The position numbers and the translations under genes were made by a program. Below, piece by piece: positions 1,943 through 22,425 of a stretch of 64,000 nt of DNA. The notes below the pieces were generated by a model that did not search any database, was not told the DNA's origin, and saw only the letters and a list, made by a program, of their open reading frames with translations. Positions within the stretch are counted from its first letter, which is position 1; every line of letters begins with the position of its first letter. The stretch comes from Phellopilus nigrolimitatus (lineage: Eukaryota; Basidiomycota; Agaricomycetes; Hymenochaetales; Hymenochaetaceae), in contig JAJOHG010000104.1 of NCBI GenBank assembly GCA_021029095.1, forward strand, positions 30,900-94,899, given 5' to 3'.

Positions 1943-4027
1943 ATGACTATCCGCTGCATCATCCACTTCGCACAGGCGCACCCCGAATTCCGTCTGCCTG
2001 AGCTCCAGTCGATCGCCGAGCTCTACGGCTTCCGCTTCTCCCAGCCCGCCCCGGGCTCGCTCCCCGACGGCTCGTCCGAGGACTGGAACCCGAAGCACCC
2101 ATTCTGGATAGTCGACTTCGAAGACGAAGCACACGCCGTGCGGCTCGCGGAGCGCTGCATACTCGTCAGGTAAGTTCCCCGTCGATCATCTTTATAAAAT
2201 TGATCTAAAAACTCTCGTTTCTTCCATCCATTCTGTGTTGAACTTGAAGATCCGTGCATGAGTTCTACGCGCGCGGTGCCTCGTATGAAAGCGTGCACTC
2301 GCAGGCTCTGGCAAACTCGTGTTTGTGGGAGCGCTATGTTGAGAACACGTCCTTCCGCTTTTCGGTCTCCGCATACAATCACAGCATCCCGCTCCAGCGT
2401 ATCAGAGAGATTGTAGAGAGCTTCAAATTTATGGGCCTCAAGGGCTCTGTTGACCTGAAAACACCTGAGCTTATTTTAGCTGTTTTTGAAGAATGTGCGT
2501 ATTGGGTTTTGCCTATTCTCGACTGTAAACTAAATTTGATCTTGAAATTATATTCCCTCTTTTTCTTTTCTTTTTCCTATTTGAAGACCCCGTTCGAGGG
2601 ACGACAACAGTCAGTAGAGACGAAGACGATACAAAGCTCGCGCAGATTTACTTCGGGAGGTTGGTGGGTTATTCCTTCAGCTTACCGCAATTCATATATG
2701 CACGCCCCGTCCATCTCACCCTGCCTTATCCCACAGATCGCCGAAGGCAAGGCTCGCTCCCTCGTGCAGAAGTTCGACGTGAAGAAGCGTGCGTACTTCG
2801 GAAACACAAGCATGGAGGCGGAAATCTCGTTACTCATGGCGAACCAGACGCTCGTCCGTTTTCCACTCACGCGCCTTCCCTCTCAAAATATCGTCTAATG
2901 ACCGCAGGCCTCGCCAGGGAAGTTCATTTATGACCCGTTCATGGGAACAGGAAGCATGGCCTATGTGCGTCTTTCTCGCTGTGCTACTCATACTTGGCGT
3001 AAAGAGCATACCTACTTCGTCTGAAACCTGACTGGGATGAAGTAGACTGCCGCGCAGTTCGGCGCATTTATCTTCGGGTCGGATATCGATGGAAGGCAGA
3101 TGAGAGGGAAAGGAACCGGTGCGCTCGACGCTCTGAGTCTTAAGCCTTCAAAAAATTCTCCCGACTAATTTCCGATCCAGAAAGCGAGCCCGGTATTCTT
3201 CGCTCTGCGGCACAATACGGCGTTGCCTCGCGTATCGTCGACCTCTGCACGTACGATGTCACACACAATCCTCTGCGATGTGGATGTCTCTTCGACGCCA
3301 TCGTGACAGACCCGCCATGTCGGTCCTTGGTTTTATGATTTATAGAAATTTGACTTAGGTCTCTGTTACGCTCACAGACGGTGTCCGTGCGGGCGCGAAA
3401 CGCCTCGGACGCAAGACGACTGACAAGAGGGTGCGCGAGCGCAATCCCGAGTTCGAAGAGGCTCAGTCGAAAGCGTGAGTATCCTGTTCTTATTAAGCCG
3501 CCAGATCCAGATGCAGTTTCATAGCCTTATGGACTTCGTGCCACCGACACAGCCATACGAGCTGTCCACGCTTGTTGCGGACTTGGTGCGGCTTGCGCGC
3601 CACTTACTGCGTCCAGCCGGCCGACTTGTATTCTTCCTGCCGACGGTGACAGACGAGTACGCAGAGGTAGATGTACATGCGCTGCTCTGTGAGGGCATGG
3701 AAATCGTCGCGAACTCCGTTCAGGATTTTGGGTCATGGGGGCGCAGGGTGGGGTGCACTCTTATAGCTCTGTTGATTAGCGCTTACGCTGCATTTTTATC
3801 ACCGGCAGTTGATCACAATTAGGAAGACCACGAGCGAGGAGTATGCCTCGCCTTTTGGCCACACAGCCGAGGGGTTTAGCGCAGAAGACGACAAGCAGAT
3901 GAGAGATGACGGCGAGAGCCGCATACCAGCGCATAAGGATTTCCGGGAGAAATATTTCAGAGGATTTCGAAAAGATGACGCCGATGAACATTCGGAACAG
4001 GAGCAGAAATCGGAGAACCGGGATTGA
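1943..4027 (+). CDS. TRM11: tRNA (guanine-N2-)-methyltransferase TRM11
   Basis: Catalytic subunit of the Trm11-Trm112 complex, which makes N2-methylguanosine at position 10 of tRNAs. The ATG at 1943 begins MTIRCIIHFAQAHPEFRLPE, the usual start of the THUMP-like N-terminal half. Exons continue through FYARGASYESVHSQAL and KRAYFGNTSMEAEIS. The Rossmann SAM-binding motif reads GKFIYDPFMGTGSMA. The catalytic DPPY is split by an intron: CCGCCAT precedes a donor and ACGGTGTCCG follows the acceptor, giving TDPPYGVRAGAKRLG. Downstream come the GRLVFFLPTV segment and a charged tail (SEQEQKSENRD) ending in TGA at 4027. At least seven short introns are needed. Length (about 480-500 aa by rough exon sum) fits the family. 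The gene looks intact. Confidence 0.9.
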
Positions 4028-13513: not shown

Positions 13514-14784
13514 ATGTCGCAAATTCAGAACAATCCAAGTGCGGATGAAGCCTGGTAAGTCGGCGAGCTTATTTCTTAAAAATAGATCTTCGTCTGTTCT
13601 GATTTATCGCGTGTTTGTCCGTAGCTTCCTCCATCTGAAAGGTAACGAGCTTACTCTCGTTGTCGTATGCTGTGAGCAATGAGCACGTGCGTGTTGTACT
13701 GATTCTCCGTACAGAAATTATGGTGGACTTCAAAGTCCCGCACCCGAACTCGAAGTTTTCTGTCAAAATCGTCGAGGCGGACAAGTCTTATGAATCGCCC
13801 GTGTTTGGAAAGGAGGATGAAGTCAAATGGGAAAGCGATCTGTGAGTTCTACTCTTATTTCTGGGTTGCATGCAAACGTCTGAGGTACGCTGCAGGTATA
13901 TTGCATCTTCTGTTGCCATCGAGTTGGTTGTTCAGGAAGTGCATATCGCGAAGCTGGATATCAAGAAGCGCTATGCATCAGTCAAGAAGAGCTTTACAGT
14001 GAGCCAGATAGCTAAGAACAAGACGGTCCAAGCTGACGGTACATTCGCCATCATAATAATGCGAAATAAAACTCATGGCTGTCCGCAGATCTTCCAAAGG
14101 TCACTGTCGATTTTACTTTTGCAGATTCGCAGTCTGTAAGCAAATAAGTGATGCATAAATATTGTTTGTATATTTCTGACTCCTTCAAAGCTCCAGAACG
14201 TTGCTCGTCTCCTTGGTGAGAAAGCAAATAGTGCCCTTGCCTCGAAGGCAGATATGTTGGGCACGATGGGCAAAGTCCTTGACCATGGAGAAGTGGTTAT
14301 GAAACTGGCAGAAGTTGTTGCTGAGGTATTTCTTGTTCCGCTTTCTTGTCTCCTCTACTGCCCCTCACTCAGAAGCATTACTTTTAGTTGAATCCATTTG
14401 CAAAGGTAGCTGTCGGAGCTGTCAAGATTGCTTTTGAGGTGAACCAACCACCCCGTATTTGTAAGTTGCACATGTGTTTCACTGACTATACATATAGAAG
14501 TGCAAGAAGATCAGCAAGGGCCATGAAGATGCTTTAGCTCTTATGGATGAGTTGGTGTCTCTGCTTCCACTGCCAGGCCTTGTTCAGGATAAAGTGAAGA
14601 CACCTGAGGTCAAGATGATAATGGAGAGTTTTCTCAGTCTGGTAAAAGAAGCAGATGAAGCTCTGATCAAATATGCATCTCCATCTAAGACCAGTGAGCA
14701 AATGTCTTTGTTGATTTGGAAATAATACTGACAGGTTCAAGGATTTTTGAAAAAGAACTTGACGTCTAAGCAGGATGCATTCAC
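13514..14784 (+). pseudogene. NACHT-WD40 gene copy 1, 5' part (C2-like and helical regions)
   Basis: The N-terminal portion of an NLR-like (NWD) protein. The ATG at 13514 starts MSQIQNNPSADEACFLHLKE. A C2-like beta-rich region follows (MVDFKVPHPNSKFSVKIVEA; VHIAKLDIKKRYASVKKSF), then helical stretches (LQNVARLLGEKANSALASK; LNPFAKVAVGAVKIAFE). Seven or so short introns join in frame. The last exon, GFLKKNLTSKQDAFT, is interrupted at 14784 by a transposon. The reading frame resumes exactly after the second target-site copy at 18195 (KLKSRLNAMKPNMNLYLDA). The parts upstream of the insertion look undamaged, so disruption seems to be due to the insertion. Such proteins are candidate non-self recognition or immunity receptors in fungi; no partner or ligand can be inferred. 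Confidence 0.8.
14777..14784 (+). repeat. 8-bp target-site duplication, left copy
   Basis: GCATTCAC, identical to 18187-18194 across the inserted element. It belongs to the interrupted exon (codons for A-F-T). Confidence 0.9.
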
Positions 14785-14799
14785 TAGAGCGTAGCACGA
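14785..14799 (+). repeat. left terminal inverted repeat of the hAT-type element
   Basis: TAGAGCGTAGCACGA. It pairs with 18172-18186 with two mismatches in 15 positions. Confidence 0.85.
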
Positions 14800-15061
14800 C
14801 TCCCTGGAACCCGTGGGTATTTGCGACCCGACTCGGACTGCAGATCCGTATTCACGGATCACCCGTGCACGGGTGACCCGTGGGAAACGGGTTTTCGCGG
14901 GTCCAGGTTGAGAATTTGTGTTTTTTCAAAACCTGCGGGTAATTCACACGGGTTTTCAAGGAAAGTGTAGCAAAGGTACATCTATTTGTATATCATATGT
15001 AAGTATGATATGTACATAGCAGGCAAGGGTTCCAAAGGAGTCAGAGATAAATGTGGGTATG

Positions 15062-15700
15062 GCGGATTGGGATGCCATCGCGCGCTCTACGCGTCTCAAC
15101 GGCTCTGGCAAATCCAACATCTTGGACGCGATCTGCTTCGTGCTCGGAATCACGAACGTGTCCTCAGTAAGAAATACGCACTGTATGATTCAGATGCGCG
15201 CTCAGAACCAGCAGGACCTCATTTACAAGCGTGGTCAGGCCGGGATAACGAAAGCCAGCGTCACGATCGTCTTCGACAATTTCAGATCGCGACAAAAGGC
15301 CTGTCGGACTGGAGAACTGCAAACAGATCACAGTCACGCGCCAAATAGCTCTGCCTAGCGTTTCCAAGTATTTGCTCAACGGACACAAGTCGCAGCAGCA
15401 CACCATCCAGACGCTTTTCCAAGGTGTGCAGCTGAACATCAACAACCCGAACTTCCTTATTATACAGGGCCGCATCACGAAGGTAGGCATATTATGATAT
15501 AATCCAACGCTATCTCATCGTCGAACAGGTCTTGAATATGCGACCTCAAGAAATCCTGGGCATGGTAGAGGAGGCGGCCGGCACACGCATGTTTGAAGAG
15601 CAGAAGGACAAGGCCAAGAAGACCATGGGCAAGAAGGAGAAGCGTGTCGACGAAATCACATCCCTGCTCGCTGAAGAGATCATCCCAAAGCTCGACACAC
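15062..15700 (+). pseudogene. captured 5' fragment of SMC2 (condensin ATPase)
   Basis: The fragment includes the SMC Walker A region [20 protein letters not shown], then [56 protein letters not shown] and MRPQEILGMVEEAAGTRMFE. This wording and order is characteristic of SMC2. A 46-nt intron is retained at about 15,483-15,528. A second, unusually short 27-nt intron-like gap splits SS from MRAQN. One extra T after FDN shifts the frame, so the fragment cannot encode a continuous product. The copy stops in the coiled-coil region after EEIIPKLD. It is cargo in the transposon; the parent gene is not in the window. Confidence 0.88.
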
Positions 15701-16900
15701 TTACCTCCGGCTCCACCTCCCCGTCCGCCTCTTCCACAAGCGCCAGCGCCTCCTGCGCTTCGTGCGTCTGCGCCGGCTCCGGCTTTACCTCCACCTGCGC
15801 AAACAAAGCGCGCACCTTGAGACGAACGTCGCGCTCGCGCGCTTGCTCTGCATACTCGCGGATGCAGACGTGGCTGTACGGCTGGAGGTGCGCCTTCGCG
15901 GGGGTAGTCGTCAAGGAGAAATGTCGTGTACGCACTGTGCGGCTCCCGCGGGGGTTCAGCGCTAGGCGCGGAAGTGGGAGCGTTGGCAGAGGAGGTACTG
16001 GGGGTGGAAGAGGCGAGCCCAGGGCTTCGCGAGGTCTTTCGTTGTTTGTGTTTTTTTTCGCTAGGGGCAGGTAAGAACTAGTTAGAGAACGATAGGGAAA
16101 GAAGAAGCGTACATTAGTCGCCATGTGAGAGGCCGAGCGTGTCGCGTGCCCAGACGGCGACGAACCCTTCGTCTGCGTCGCACGCTGCGGTGCCGGCAAG
16201 AGGCACACCGAAGAGCGCGTCAAAGAAGCAGCAGCGCACCCATCTTGTCGATGTTGTGCGGTTGCGCGCTGGAGCAGACCATCGAGTCGAGCCACGCGCG
16301 CGTGCGCGGCGTGAAGCGGAAGTCGCGCAGCGCGGGCATGTACGGCCGCGGGTGCGGCACGCCGCGCGCGGTGCGCACAAGGAGCGTGCCGTTGAGATCG
16401 AGGATGACCAACTCGCGCGGGGCGGATGGGAAGGGCTGGAGGGGAGAGACGCGACCTGGATGTAGTCTGGAGACGGGGATGACGGGAGGGGCGCGGGCGG
16501 GGGTGAGGGCGTAGGTGTGCGGCGGTGTCGAGGCGAGAACGCCGGGCCTGCGAGATAGGTGCTGTATGAGCGCTGCTGCTGGTAGTTGTGCCTGTAGGCC
16601 GACCTGTCATGATAGCCCGCCTCGTAGAACGCAGGCTCGTCGCACGGCTCGCTCGACGCGGAGTAGTACTCGCTGTACCCAGATTGCAACAAGGACGGCG
16701 GCGCGTCGTGCTCGTACGAGTAGTCGCTGTAGCCGTCGCCCCTGCTCGCGTAGTGCTCGCGCTGCCACCGGGCACTGCGCGGACTCCAGTGGCCGAAGGC
16801 GGGCGCCTGCGCAGCCCAGGCGTCGTTGTGCGGGTCGTCGTAGAAGCGTCCACCGGAGGAGCTGCTGCCCGACGGAGTGAGATGTCACTCAGCCAGTGCG
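15700..16900 (-). pseudogene. captured fragment of an FCP1-like (NIF/HAD) phosphatase gene
   Basis: Minus-strand pieces read LVILDLNGTLLVRTARG, RPYMPALRDFRF and SSAQPHNIDKMG, then AVWARDTLGLSHGD, QTTKDLAKPWARLFHP and KAHLQPYSHVCIREYAEQAR. This is the HAD/FCP1-like (NLI-interacting factor) fold, with DLNGTLL in place of the classic DxDGT, as in a fungal paralog group. Pieces lie in different frames and are interrupted by stops (for example a TAG after SHFRA), with at least one intron retained, so it is a broken copy. An upstream Tyr/Ser/Pro-rich region (SGYSEYYSASSEPCDEPAF) probably belongs to the same source gene. Confidence 0.75.
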
Positions 16901-17097
16901 ACCTGGGTCAATGATTAGAGGGGTCGGAAACATCCGAGCACCTTGTTTTATCGACAATGCATCTAGGCACCTGTTTAATTTATTTTCGCACTTCACAACA
17001 AAATAAATATATGGAATGAGAGCCCTCGATGAGTTGGTTCTGCTCGTGCTTTTTTCTTTGCTTAGCACTCCTTGGAAAAAAAGTTATTGTCTTCCAC

Positions 17098-17925
17098 TTA
17101 TGTTGTAGCTGTATTAGTCAGCCCAACATGTCCCCACCAAAACGCCTGTCTGTTCCCGGCTAATGTGCTCAAATAAGAGATAGAAAAAGTACAGTTTTCG
17201 CGAATTATGTGTACCGGCATAGTAAAGCAATATAAGGTGACGTCGAAAGCGATGATCGCGATCTTCGTCCTATTGTCATCGTTCGGAATTCTATCGAGCG
17301 ACTCGAGTAGTGACCGACAGGCAGTCGCGACTATACCGGTCGAGACAGCGGCATAGATCATGTCAACGAAGAAGCAGTAAAACACAGGCTGGGGCGGGCG
17401 GACCATGTATTCTGTCGGTGCAACGAGTTCGACCAGCTCTGCGCGTGCCCACCTGTCCCTAGTCAAAAATTTGCGGCACCTCATTGGACATCATGCAAAG
17501 CATGCAATACCATTGGTTGCCGCCGTCGATGAACTGCACGAAGGGTTCTGCAACAGCGGCAGCACGAGATGACAGTGTCGGTGATGCACAGGATCGGAGT
17601 ATCGCCCTCTTTGAGCGAGTGGTATGGCGTGAGGACGAGTCCAAAAAGCAATTTGGACTTGTTGAGCAGTGCGGAGGTCGTCAGGACCGCATTGAATGTG
17701 CAGCACTGGTAGGGTGGGTCCGCATTTGCGCACGGCGATGGCGAGATGCATGCATTCAGCGGCAAGCGAATCTCAGGATGCGGCGCGTACAGCTCGTGCA
17801 GGTCGGGTGGGGCCGTCAGTAGGTTTGTGGTATACAGTGTGTGGGGATTTTGCTTACTCAAATTGCAGTCTCGCCCACACAATGCACTCTTCGAAGGTCA
17901 ATGACTTGTTCTTGACTAAGTAAGA
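17098..17925 (-). pseudogene. captured fragment of SEC24 (COPII coat)
   Basis: The minus-strand reading gives SKLLFGLVLTPYHSLKEGDT, a degraded zinc-finger part ([24 protein letters not shown]), then [40 protein letters not shown] and [18 protein letters not shown]. These are the zinc-finger and trunk beginnings of Sec24, the cargo-binding COPII subunit. Frames change between blocks and key cysteines of the zinc finger are disturbed. It lies in the same orientation as the phosphatase fragment and opposite to the SMC2 fragment. The parent gene is elsewhere. Confidence 0.85.
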
Positions 17926-17989
17926 GACGATCTGGGTGCTGTCTGGTATGCCTCCGTGTAGTTTGGCTCAGTAAGATAGGAGTTCACGG

Positions 17990-18171
17990 CTTTGGTTACA
18001 AAAACCTGTGAAGATCCGCAAACTGACCCTTGACCTCCGTGACCTGCACCCGTGGGTTTTTGGGGACCCGTAGGTCCGAGTCCGAACAGGTCCGGGTCAA
18101 GCCGGGTCCAGGTTGGGAAATTTAAGCCACGGGTGACCCGCCAACAGGTCCGGGTCAACCCGAGGTTCTAC
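17990..18171. repeat. subterminal repeats of the hAT-type element, right end
   Basis: Multiple short GGACCCG/CGGGTCC and CGGGTGACCCG motifs in direct and inverted orientation. The same kind of motif occurs at the left end (about 14,810-14,955). Subterminal motif clusters are typical binding sites of hAT transposases. Confidence 0.7.
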
Positions 18172-18186
18172 TCGTGCCAGGCTCTA
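18172..18186 (-). repeat. right terminal inverted repeat of the hAT-type element
   Basis: TCGTGCCAGGCTCTA, the inverted partner of the left terminus. Confidence 0.85.
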
Positions 18187-18194
18187 GCATTCAC
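18187..18194 (+). repeat. 8-bp target-site duplication, right copy
   Basis: GCATTCAC, identical to the left copy at 14777-14784. Confidence 0.9.
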
Positions 18195-18448: not shown

Positions 18449-20264
18449 CTACTCAAGGAGTTGCAGCCAGTCATTTCAGCTTATTATGACCCAAAACATT
18501 CCTGTTTGTCAGGCACAAGAGTAAACCTTTTGCAGGAAATTGGTGACTGGTCCACTACTCAGGGTCAAACATCCAAACTTTTCTGGATGCATGGCATTGC
18601 TGGTTCAGGGAAGAGCACCATTGCATCCTCTGTTGCATCCATGTCCTATGCTAATAAGTGCCTTGCTGGATGCTTCTTCTTCAAGAGGGACATACCAGAG
18701 CGCAGGAATCCACAATCTCTATTTCCTTCTTTGACTTACAGCCTTGCTATTCTCTTCAAACCTTTCAGGGATGCTATTTTTCAGGTGCTGCAAACAGACC
18801 CAGTCATTGCTGGCAAGGCAGTTTCTCTGCAGTTTGAGGCACTTTTCAGAGGTCCAATTTCTAAATGCAGCCAAAGCTCTCCATTAAAACCTATCATCAT
18901 GGTTATAGATGCTTTGGATGAGTGTGGAGATGCTCAGGACAGGTCTATGATTGCTTCATACCTCACACAGCTGGCAAATCTTGCACCTTGGCTCAAGGTC
19001 TTTGTTTCCAGCAGGCCATACCATGAGCTCCAGGACAGCTTTAACATGACCAGCCATCCCTGGGTTCACAAACTAGATCTGAACAATGTTGATGCCAGGC
19101 AGGATATTTATACATTCACAGAGTTGCAGATAAAGGCTATCCTTGAACCAGACTCAAAGTGGCTCCAGGAGGAGAATGTCAGGGCACTCTCAGATAGAGC
19201 TGCTGGTCTCTTCATATGGATAAGCACTGTTGCCAGATTCATTGCAGATGAATATGAGAAAGAAACTGCACTTCAGGAGATCCTTCTTGGAACATTCTCA
19301 GCAGCAGATGGACCAGAAGTTGCATTGGATGAGCTCTACAGCTTTGTGCTTCGTGGAATCAAAGGCAGTGGACGAAACCAAAAGCTCTTAAACACTGTCC
19401 TTGGTGTTATTGTCAGTACAGCCAGAAACAGACCCCTTCCTGTGTCTGGGATATTTGATCTTCTACCTAGTGTCCTTTTTAGCTCTCAACCAGCTGTGCA
19501 GGCAATTTTAAAGGACCTACAGTCTGTTCTGTATAAAGATAGTGCTCTTGATGGAGCTATCCGAGTCTGCCATCCTTCCTTCCTTGATTTCATGACCAAA
19601 AAATCACGCTCAGGGCCATTCTGGACCAATCCTACCCAAGTTGATTCAGAAATGGCTACAAGGTGCCTCCAGATTATGCACTCCCAACTCAAGTTCAATA
19701 TCTGCAAGCTAGAGTCCTCTCATGTGCCAAATAAGGACATCACAGATCTCCAGCACAAGGTTTCACAACATATTCCCCAGTCACTCCAGTACAGCTGCAG
19801 ATATTGGATGGACCATATTTCTTATTCAGAGGTTGCTGTCACTGTTCATCAAGTGCATGATCTAGTTCAGGATATCCTGTGCCAGCCAAAAGCTTTGTTT
19901 TGGCTTGAGGCTCTGAGCTTGATGGGAGAGCTGAAATCAAGCATTGACATTTTAGATAAGGCCTCACTTGTGTTCAAGGTAAATTTGTCAACTTAAACTT
20001 GACTACAATAGTCACTCATGCATTTTATGTTCAGGATTCCAGTGGGATTGGAGAAGCTTCCACAGATCTCTACAGATTTGTTTCTGCATTCTATGAAGCT
20101 ATAGCAACCAGCACACCCCATCTTTATGTTTCTGCCTTATCCTGGGCTCCATCAGACAGTTATGTAGCCAAAGTGTTCTATGCCTCATTCTCCAATCAGT
20201 CTTTTTTTGTCTCTGGAAAACCCAAGACTTGGAGGAGCAATTTATGGTCAACAGACACTGGAAG

Positions 20265-22040
20265 CCTTGTCTCTTGTGTTGCCTACTCACCAGATGGAAG
20301 GTACATTGTGTCTGACTTAGGTATCTGCAACACCATTGGCATTTGGGATGCTCAGACTGGGAAGCAAATAGGAGAGCCATTCACAGGACATTCAAGTTGG
20401 GTCAGAACTGTTGCATACTCTCCTGATGGAAAGCACATTGTCTCTGGCTCAGATGACAAGACCATCTGTATTTGGGAAGCCCAAACTGGGAAGCAAGTAG
20501 GAGAACCATTCACTGGACATACAAAGAGGGTCACTTCTGTTGCCTACTCCCCTGATGGAAGGCACATAGCATCTGGCTCGGAGGACAGAACCATCTGCAT
20601 TTGGGATGCCCAGACTGGGGCACAAGTAGGAGGGGCACTCACAGGGCATTCATCTAGGGTTTTGGCTGTTGCCTACTCCCCTGATGGAATGCATATTGTG
20701 TCTGGCTCAAGTGACAACTCCATCTGTGTTTGGGATGCTCAGACTGGGAAGCAAGTAGGAGAGCCACTCAGAGGACACTTAGAAGCTGTTGAGTCTGTTG
20801 CCTACTCTCCCGATGGAAGGCACATTGTATCTGGTTCATTGGACGACACCATCTGCATTTGGGATTCCCAGACTGGAAAACAAGTAAGAGAGCCGCTCAC
20901 AGGACATTCAAGTTGGGTTTTTTCTGTTGTCTACTCCCCTGATGGAAAGCACATTGTGTCTGGCTCACATGACAAGACCATCTGCATTTGGGATGCTCAG
21001 ACTGGGAAGCAAGTAGGAGAGCCACTCAGAGGACACTTAGAAGCTGTTCAGTCTATTGCCTACTCCCCTGATGGAAGGCACATTGTGTCTGGTTCATGGG
21101 ACAAGACCATCCGTATCTGGGATTCCCAGACTGGGACACAAGTAGGAGATGCGCTCACAGGACACTTTGAAACTGTTAAGTCTGTTGCCTACTCTCCTGA
21201 TGGAAGGCACATTGTGTCTGGTTCAAAGGACAAGACCATCTGCATTTGGGATGCAAAGACTGGGAAGCAAGTAAGAGAGCCACTCACAGGACATTTAGAT
21301 GAGGTCACTTCTGTTGCATACTCCCCTGATCAAAGGCACATTGTCTCTGGCTCAGATGACAAGACCATCTGCATTTGGGATGCTCAGACTGGGAAACAAG
21401 TAGGAGAGCCACTCACAGGACATTCACGTATGGTTCTTTCTGTTGCCTACTCCCCTGATGGAAAGCACATTGTCTCTGGCTTGGAGGACACAACCATATG
21501 TATTTGGGATGCTCAGACTAGGAAGCGAGTAGGAGAAACACTCACATGGCTTTCAAATGCTGTCAATTCTGTTGCGTACTCCCCTGATGGAAAACACATT
21601 GTGTCTGGTTCATGTGAAATCTTCTGTATTTGGGATGCTCAGACTGGGAAGCAAGTAGGCAAGCCATTCACTGGACATTCAAGCTTTGTCAATTCTGTTG
21701 CCTACTGCCCTGATGGAAGGCACATAGTGTCTGGCTCGGTGGACAGGACCATCTGCATTTGGGATGCACAGACTGGGAAACAAGTAGGAGAGCCACTCAC
21801 AGGACACTTAGAAGCTGTCAATTCTGTTGCCTACTCCCCTGATGGAAGGCACATAGCGTCTGGCTCAGATGACAAGACTGTCCGCATTTGGGATGCCCAG
21901 ACTGGGACACAAGTAGGAGATGCACTCACAGGACATTCAGATTGGGTCACTTCTGTTGCATACTCCCCTGATGGAAGGCATATTGTGTCTGGTTCATGGG
22001 ACAGCACCATCCGTATCTGGGATGCAGATACTGAATCAGA
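20265..22040 (+). repeat. 14 tandem WD40 repeats of about 129 bp (copy 1)
   Basis: The consensus residue pattern is VxSVAYSPDGRHIVSGSxDx followed by TICIWDAQTGKQVGEPLTGH plus three variable residues. Variation concentrates at the residue after the first V, the two residues flanking D, the C/R/W between I and I, and the last three residues. Repeat 10 (TWLSNA) and repeat 11 (SCEIFCIWD) are degenerate. Confidence 0.9.
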
Positions 22041-22425
22041 AGGTTTCCTACTGAATCAGCAACTTCCAAAGGAAATTTTAGGAGATGGGTGGTACAGGAC
22101 ACCATCAGGTGAACTGTCGCTCTGGGTTCCTCATGAATATAGAGATGGATTCTGTGACAAGAGTGACATGTGCATTCAAGAAGCTCGGCCAAGGTTTCCT
22201 GCAAGGCTGGACTGGCCGAAGTTCCATCACTATAGAGGTCCTAGCTGGACACAGATTTTTGATGAGCCTTGTTCTTCAGGTGTAAGTTACCATGCTTTTG
22301 TTGTTGTAGTTCGATTTCTTACTAACAAAAGGAATTATTTTTTAGTCTGGAATGTAAAGACGACTTCGATCCATACCGAAGATCTAATACGCTGGATTTT
22401 GTCCAGTAGGGTTGTGGAGGAGTAA

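Follow-up and report, generated by a model that had tools for sequence, protein, structure and literature searches.

The window analyzed here, 64,000 nucleotides of the genome of the basidiomycete Phellopilus nigrolimitatus, contains an NLR gene interrupted by a 3,402 bp element (window positions 14785-18186), which is very probably a non-autonomous hAT transposon (a Pack-hAT) with a mosaic cargo drawn from separate donor loci and spread by transposition. The element is flanked by exact 8 bp target-site duplications (TSD; GCATTCAC, at 14777-14784 and again at 18187-18194), and its inverted ends, TAGAGCGTAGCACGA and TAGAGCCTGGCACGA, match at 13 of 15 positions. A preliminary description of this DNA had proposed a hAT-type element carrying pieces of three host genes within an NLR exon. 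This proposal is supported, with captured pieces now numbering more than three; the segment between the duplications was borne out to the base, and the end match confirms the inverted TAGAGC...CACGA termini described for it. Across 60,582 positions of the window, an exact 8 bp repeat at the spacing of the element occurs twice, the element included, and only the element combines such a repeat with an inverted-end match of at least 11 of 15. Its features, with those of the gene downstream, are as follows.

14777..14784, no strand: target-site duplication, left copy (GCATTCAC), present as a single copy at the uninterrupted site L043
14785..15022, plus strand: left end with terminal inverted repeat (TIR) and subterminal repeats (element 1-238), 94-99% to L015, L016, and L017
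15022..15088, minus strand: proximal piece of a phosphatase-like locus (element 238-304), 91% to donor L013
15088..15701, plus strand: SMC2 fragment (element 304-917) with two introns and one 1 bp frameshift; PF02463
15167..15193, plus strand: remnant of SMC2 intron 1 with a 23 bp deletion, from alignment to L021
15483..15528, plus strand: SMC2 intron 2, full length, from alignment to L021
15702..16867, minus strand: distal piece of the phosphatase-like locus (element 918-2083), 7.3% substitutions to L013
16868..16942, no strand: 75 bp without a donor among the scored matches of the genome search
16943..17123, no strand: piece matching C1:2433130-2433311 (element 2159-2339), 90%, 8.3% substitutions to L042
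17124..17151, no strand: 28 bp without a donor among the scored matches of the genome search
17152..17853, minus strand: SEC24 exon fragment (element 2368-3069), 11.8% substitutions to L019; PF04811
17855..18186, plus strand: right part and right end (element 3071-3402), 98.8% to the right end of L017
18187..18194, no strand: target-site duplication, right copy, exact copy of GCATTCAC
18461..22425, plus strand: downstream NLR body in two ORFs, NPHP3_N/NACHT followed by WD40 repeats

The preliminary description saw no transposase in the interior, and in agreement with this a scan covering 6 of 35 listed ORFs found no transposase domain inside the element. Rfam returned no family reaching its gathering threshold on the window. 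The short TIRs of hAT elements start with YARNG, which the TAGAG start of this element fits. The TSD preference of hAT elements is nTnnnnAn, and this is not clearly seen in the TSDs of 14 elements of the family (T at position 2 in 6/14, A at position 7 in 7/14). The only same-ended transposase examined, that of element L017 described below, is of the hAT type, which bears on the alternative of a MULE. Helitrons have neither TSD nor TIR, and a Helitron does not fit, since the window element has both.

Copies, insertion-free sites and the interrupted NLR gene

The genome searched comprises 56.4 Mb on 635 contigs. With 40 of 270 candidates scored, at least four further full-length copies were identified (on C123, C190, C556, and C135), these being 99.0-99.6% identical to the window copy, with 0.03-1.1% substitutions between full-length copies. 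Their flanks (800 bp per side) have no mutual similarity and their TSDs are GTGAGTCG/GTGAGTCA (7/8), CTCCCCGG, ATTCCAAC, and GTGGTAGT. More widely, the 8 bp TSD is exact in 13 of the 14 elements having both ends and matches at 7 of 8 positions in the remaining one, while shifted registers used as a control reach 5/8 at most in the same 14. Family ends were scored for 40 of 154 left and 40 of 149 right candidates, placing the left end of the window element at 40 or more sites of the genome, its own included, and a 19 bp end pattern allowing at most one mismatch gave 21 genome-wide matches against 0 for the reversed control. Sister elements with the same termini, for which the preliminary description had suggested searching, thus lie on other contigs, some of them carrying other genes. 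It had also named, as evidence against its proposal, the same gene fragments lying together in this order elsewhere without the termini, and a lack of further copies of the termini. Neither was seen, and all five full-length matches (40/270 candidates scored) possess the termini. That the segment is no transposon at all, but sequence which was duplicated or wrongly assembled and has such ends by chance, might be entertained for an assembly of 635 contigs which apparently holds both haplotypes in part. However, five copies with unrelated flanks, their own duplications and insertion-free sites, together with the 21 versus 0 end matches, make this extremely improbable, and it was rejected.

The NLR body downstream of the element possesses an NPHP3_N/NACHT region (PF24883, 2e-28; PF05729 slightly below its own cut-off) and 13 stretches with PF00400. 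When the two flanks of the element are joined, they match C112:1932906-1933395 along all 490 bases, with longer flanks being 99.1 and 99.2% identical between the window and this copy (L043). The C112 copy has GCATTCAC once only and its reading frame KQDAFTKLKSRL is open through the site, so that the frame does resume across the duplication, as previously claimed, and the empty site is present in the assembly itself. Judging by the 99% identity, the C112 site would be the other allele of the window locus rather than a recent duplicate, and the insertion into the NLR gene appears to be recent and confined to one haplotype. For the four other copies, 40 of 322 candidates were scored in the search for uninterrupted sites. 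For L009 there is such a site at 99% identity on C55. L010, L011, and L012 are inserted into repeat families, and their best uninterrupted sites (92, 96, and 94%, respectively) are related sites and only possibly alleles.

Donors of the cargo and the candidate partner element

Donor genes, to which the preliminary description had proposed aligning the fragments, were found for the SMC2 and SEC24 pieces and for the phosphatase-like locus. The SMC2 piece (PF02463, E = 2e-13 in the window) has its donor on C90, a gene with SMC_N and hinge domains whose best solved relatives are SMC2, and the 98% copy of this gene on C287 is probably its allele. The piece has 2.9-3.4% substitutions to these genes (L020/L021) and retains both introns, intron 2 whole and intron 1 minus 23 bp. 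It must accordingly derive from genomic DNA, and its introns and 1 bp frameshift make it non-coding in its present state. The SEC24 piece (PF04811, E = 5.5e-12 in the window) falls within a single ORF of its donor (L019, C57), a gene with zinc finger, trunk, beta-sandwich, helical, and gelsolin parts which matches solved Sec24; a protein search with the donor ORF gave Artomyces pyxidatus as the best named match (60%). The phosphatase identity of the third locus is borderline, PF03031 being exactly at the cut-off (21.8 bits) and only on the donor gene after splicing at an approximately placed join, while domain scans of the unspliced pieces gave nothing. For the piece matching C1, no coding match was seen. 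The earlier reading of SMC2, phosphatase, and SEC24 fragments all still containing introns hence holds for the SMC2 and SEC24 assignments and for the introns of SMC2, does not extend to introns in all three, and remains borderline for the phosphatase.

These introns also bear on a route through RNA, with the cargo consisting of retrocopies, as reported of the histone H3 genes carried by hAT elements of ascomycetes. The published H3 cases are described as intronless (PMC6710886) and the SEC24 piece, lying within one ORF, is uninformative on introns; nevertheless, the two introns of the SMC2 piece rule out RNA-derived capture of SMC2 and leave this route very improbable for the cargo.

Sister elements carry different cargo, including an HSP70 piece in L016, RPS19 and eIF3a pieces in L015, and a septin piece in L037, of which two 99% copies are present. 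The cargo ORFs scanned in L022, L036, and L040 gave no family, and that of L038 gave a Plus-3 match under its own cut-off.

The preliminary description had also called for an autonomous element with the same ends. Element L017 (8,105 bp, C290:62295-70399, TSD CGACGCGG) has the same ends as the window element and carries a multi-exon hAT transposase gene, with PF05699 at E = 1.3e-7 on a splice model drawn by eye. A genome search with PF05699 alone gave seven matches without L017 among them, probably owing to an intron within the domain, so that the spliced model is needed; none of six transposase exon pieces taken singly had a Pfam match at 1e-3. A search with the transposase gave 113 homologs (7,989 candidates scored), the ten best all with PF05699; the best match is at 46%, followed by proteins of Antrodiella citrinella (44-46%) and then of Phanerochaete sordida, both Polyporales (Agaricomycetes). 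Within the genome, transposase genes of the L017 type are present on at least C4, C423, C488, C603, and C622 (57/83 candidates scored), that on C603 adjoining a family right end. L017 is a plausible partner of the window element, which its transposase may mobilize.

Similarity between the window element and L017 is confined to the ends and SEC24, as L017 too carries SEC24 sequence, related to the SEC24 piece of the window element. L017 itself is located within a partial SEC24 copy, its flanks matching L019 3372-5001 piecewise at 92-96% and one flank ORF matching the Sec23/Sec24 helical domain, while the cargo, in inverted orientation with respect to these flanks, corresponds to L019 1905-3013 at 80-88%. 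This placement and the cargo match would fit copying from nearby DNA.

Assembly of the mosaic

The junction of left end and phosphatase-like piece is common to the window element, L015, and L016. L015 and L016 both retain most of the approximately 110 bp which SMC2 replaced inside this piece, and these junctions indicate that the phosphatase-like piece was captured before SMC2. In trees, the phosphatase-like pieces of L015, L016, and the window copies split jointly from the donor alleles (100/99), the window element clusters by its right end with L012, which is one of the full-length copies, and with L017 (100/100), the right end of L015 belongs to a different clade from that of the window element and L017 (100/99), and the SEC24 piece groups with that of L017 (97/95). 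The SEC24 piece inside the window element is unmatched by both L015 and L016. The window element thus has a phosphatase-like piece in common with L015 and L016, with SMC2 set inside it, and SEC24 and a right end in common with L017.

The left end is less simple. Over its 238 bp, L015 is nearer to the window element than L017 (97.9 vs. 94.1%), whereas a tree of the first 158 bases has no supported fork holding the window element and its nearest sister rows are L017 and then L016, with L015 further away. The far left end therefore seems not to be L015-like, which speaks against simply taking the left half from L015. The left ends of the window element, L016, and L017, which are 94-99% alike, also lend something to a rival history, in which capture proceeded stepwise in a single lineage without exchange and the likeness of L015, L016, and L017 reflects ancestry followed by losses. 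The tree places L017 nearest, and an ancestor with both phosphatase and SEC24 pieces which later lost either would yield much of the pattern. Against this, L015 has the same phosphatase junction and yet its right end falls in a different clade (100/99 vs. 100/100), and neither L015 nor L016 has a match to the SEC24 piece. Stepwise descent is accordingly considered rather doubtful.

In the favored history, involving exchange, breaks within resident copies would be repaired by copying other loci, through gap repair or template switching; the readable cargo joins share 0-1 bp. The phosphatase and SEC24 halves would be united by exchange between family members, in either direction, and the completed mosaic would then multiply by transposition, with the transposase of the partner L017 moving elements of the window type. 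Substitutions to the donors (SEC24 11.8%, phosphatase-like 7.3%, SMC2 2.9-3.4%) provide only a rough order or clock, since the rate of change is not the same for all donors, the difference between alleles being 0.5% over the SMC2 stretch and 3.5% over the phosphatase stretch.

Four of the seven located donors lie inside 272 kb of contig C90, namely eIF3a, septin, SMC2, and the phosphatase-like piece at about 295, 367, 465, and 567 kb, with second copies of the SMC2 and phosphatase donors at like identity on C287 and C83. It is tentatively suggested, as one quite possible reading, that the family is a modular shuffler whose elements, hopping locally, copy nearby housekeeping genes, so that the eIF3a, septin, SMC2, and phosphatase-like cargo would record a former residence in one region of about 270 kb, and whose packs of single genes are later combined through exchange between members, the chimeras spreading genome-wide. 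Alternatively, the clustering might be due to chance and local capture be unnecessary. The pattern was noticed post hoc and on an incomplete cargo list, and the SEC24 (C57), HSP70 (best matches C555 and C625), and C1 donors lie outside C90. However, if seven donors are placed at random, four of them fall within 272 kb with a probability of 1.5e-5 (56.4 Mb) or 9.9e-5 (30 Mb), and chance is considered unlikely.

Relation to known gene-capturing transposons

The preliminary description knew of no well-described fungal hAT example of gene capture. This goes too far, as hAT elements have been reported to transduplicate histone H3 in Pyrenophora tritici-repentis and Pseudocercospora (PMC3538342, PMC6710886). 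As described there, these resemble the window element in being hAT elements, with an 8 bp TSD in P. fijiensis, which have multiplied a host housekeeping gene in a fungal genome. They differ in having one recognized host gene, reported to derive from a transcript (the Pyrenophora element adding an ORF of unknown function), and in carrying their own hAT transposase or what remains of one. The window element has several genes, retained SMC2 introns, and modular sisters, with no transposase found inside; neither the intronless cargo nor the internal transposase of the H3 type was seen in it. TET/JBP-bearing DNA transposons of fungi, including hAT7 of rusts, likewise carry a host-like gene, according to their description alongside the transposase and, in hAT7, with a 7 bp TSD, in contrast to the fragments and 8 bp TSD of the window element (PMC12730594).

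The features which characterize Pack-TYPE elements are found here, there being donor-matching cargo, five mobile copies with insertion-free sites, and no transposase found internally. Maize and rice Pack-TYPE elements, including Pack-hAT, similarly have gene fragments between hAT ends with an 8 nt TSD, and acquisition through the joining of neighboring elements is reported for them (PMC8903248). The elements of that account are from plants, while the present one is from a fungus. Maize Ds2 and Ds-l4 are also hAT elements with intron-containing fragments, filler DNA, and donors on other chromosomes, for which repair of breaks by copying from other loci was suggested; Ds elements with gene fragments are termed rare there and the tested Ds-l were unresponsive to Ac, whereas the window family has recent near-identical copies (PMC3260210). 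Animal Pack-TIRs share the captured sequence within TIR elements, short microhomology, and a cis bias of donors, and gap filling has been proposed for them, with fork stalling and template switching for the multicopy ones. They are described as mostly single-copy, a multicopy Pack-hAT existing in frog, whereas the window family is multicopy with several donors per element (PMC8277862).

No fungal multi-gene genomic capture by hAT elements was found in the open-access literature searched. With capture by fungal hAT elements and Pack elements of plants and animals already known, what is new here is a multi-gene, modular Pack-hAT family in a fungus with cargo from genomic DNA, extending such capture beyond the single recognized host gene of the published fungal cases consulted. 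How excising DNA transposons acquire host genes is still debated, and in this family the junctions within a single genome allow an order of events to be read, namely a first capture, later filler inside it, the joining to a second pack and finally spread; the same genome also provides the donors and an insertion-free site. The family further illustrates one way in which chimeric gene material can arise and haplotypes can come to differ at immune-type NLR genes.

Host and donor genes

The NLR gene that carries the 3,402-bp window element has the following C-terminal reading frame:
window 19999-22425: NLR C-terminal ORF, with 13 WD40 stretches above threshold

The phosphatase-like donor locus, present in two copies (L013 on contig C90 and L014 on C83) which differ by approximately 5%, contains repeated internal segments. 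A host gene was also located for cargo of a sister element:
C90:294000-296300: host eIF3a gene (L055), PF22591

Sister element L015 matches approximately 234 bp of this gene, and in sister element L016 too an eIF3a-like reading, as judged by eye, extends across and beyond the right end of the element.

Transposase-bearing sequences

The 8,105-bp, transposase-bearing element L017 is inserted in the interior of a partial second SEC24 copy, and its own cargo is the upstream part of SEC24 in inverted orientation:
C290:61598-62294 and 70402-71095: partial second SEC24 copy flanking L017

On contig C423 (9118-15887), hAT transposase exons are found in two inverted copies facing one another.

Further elements with SEC24 pieces

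Eight further elements (L018, L022-L028) possess SEC24 pieces, matching that of the window element at 73-87%. Three of them, L018, L024 and L028, have HSP70 pieces no more than a few kb away. In seven of the eight, the left-end match directly adjoins the SEC24 piece with an identical boundary, and the SEC24 capture with this common boundary is apparently an older one.
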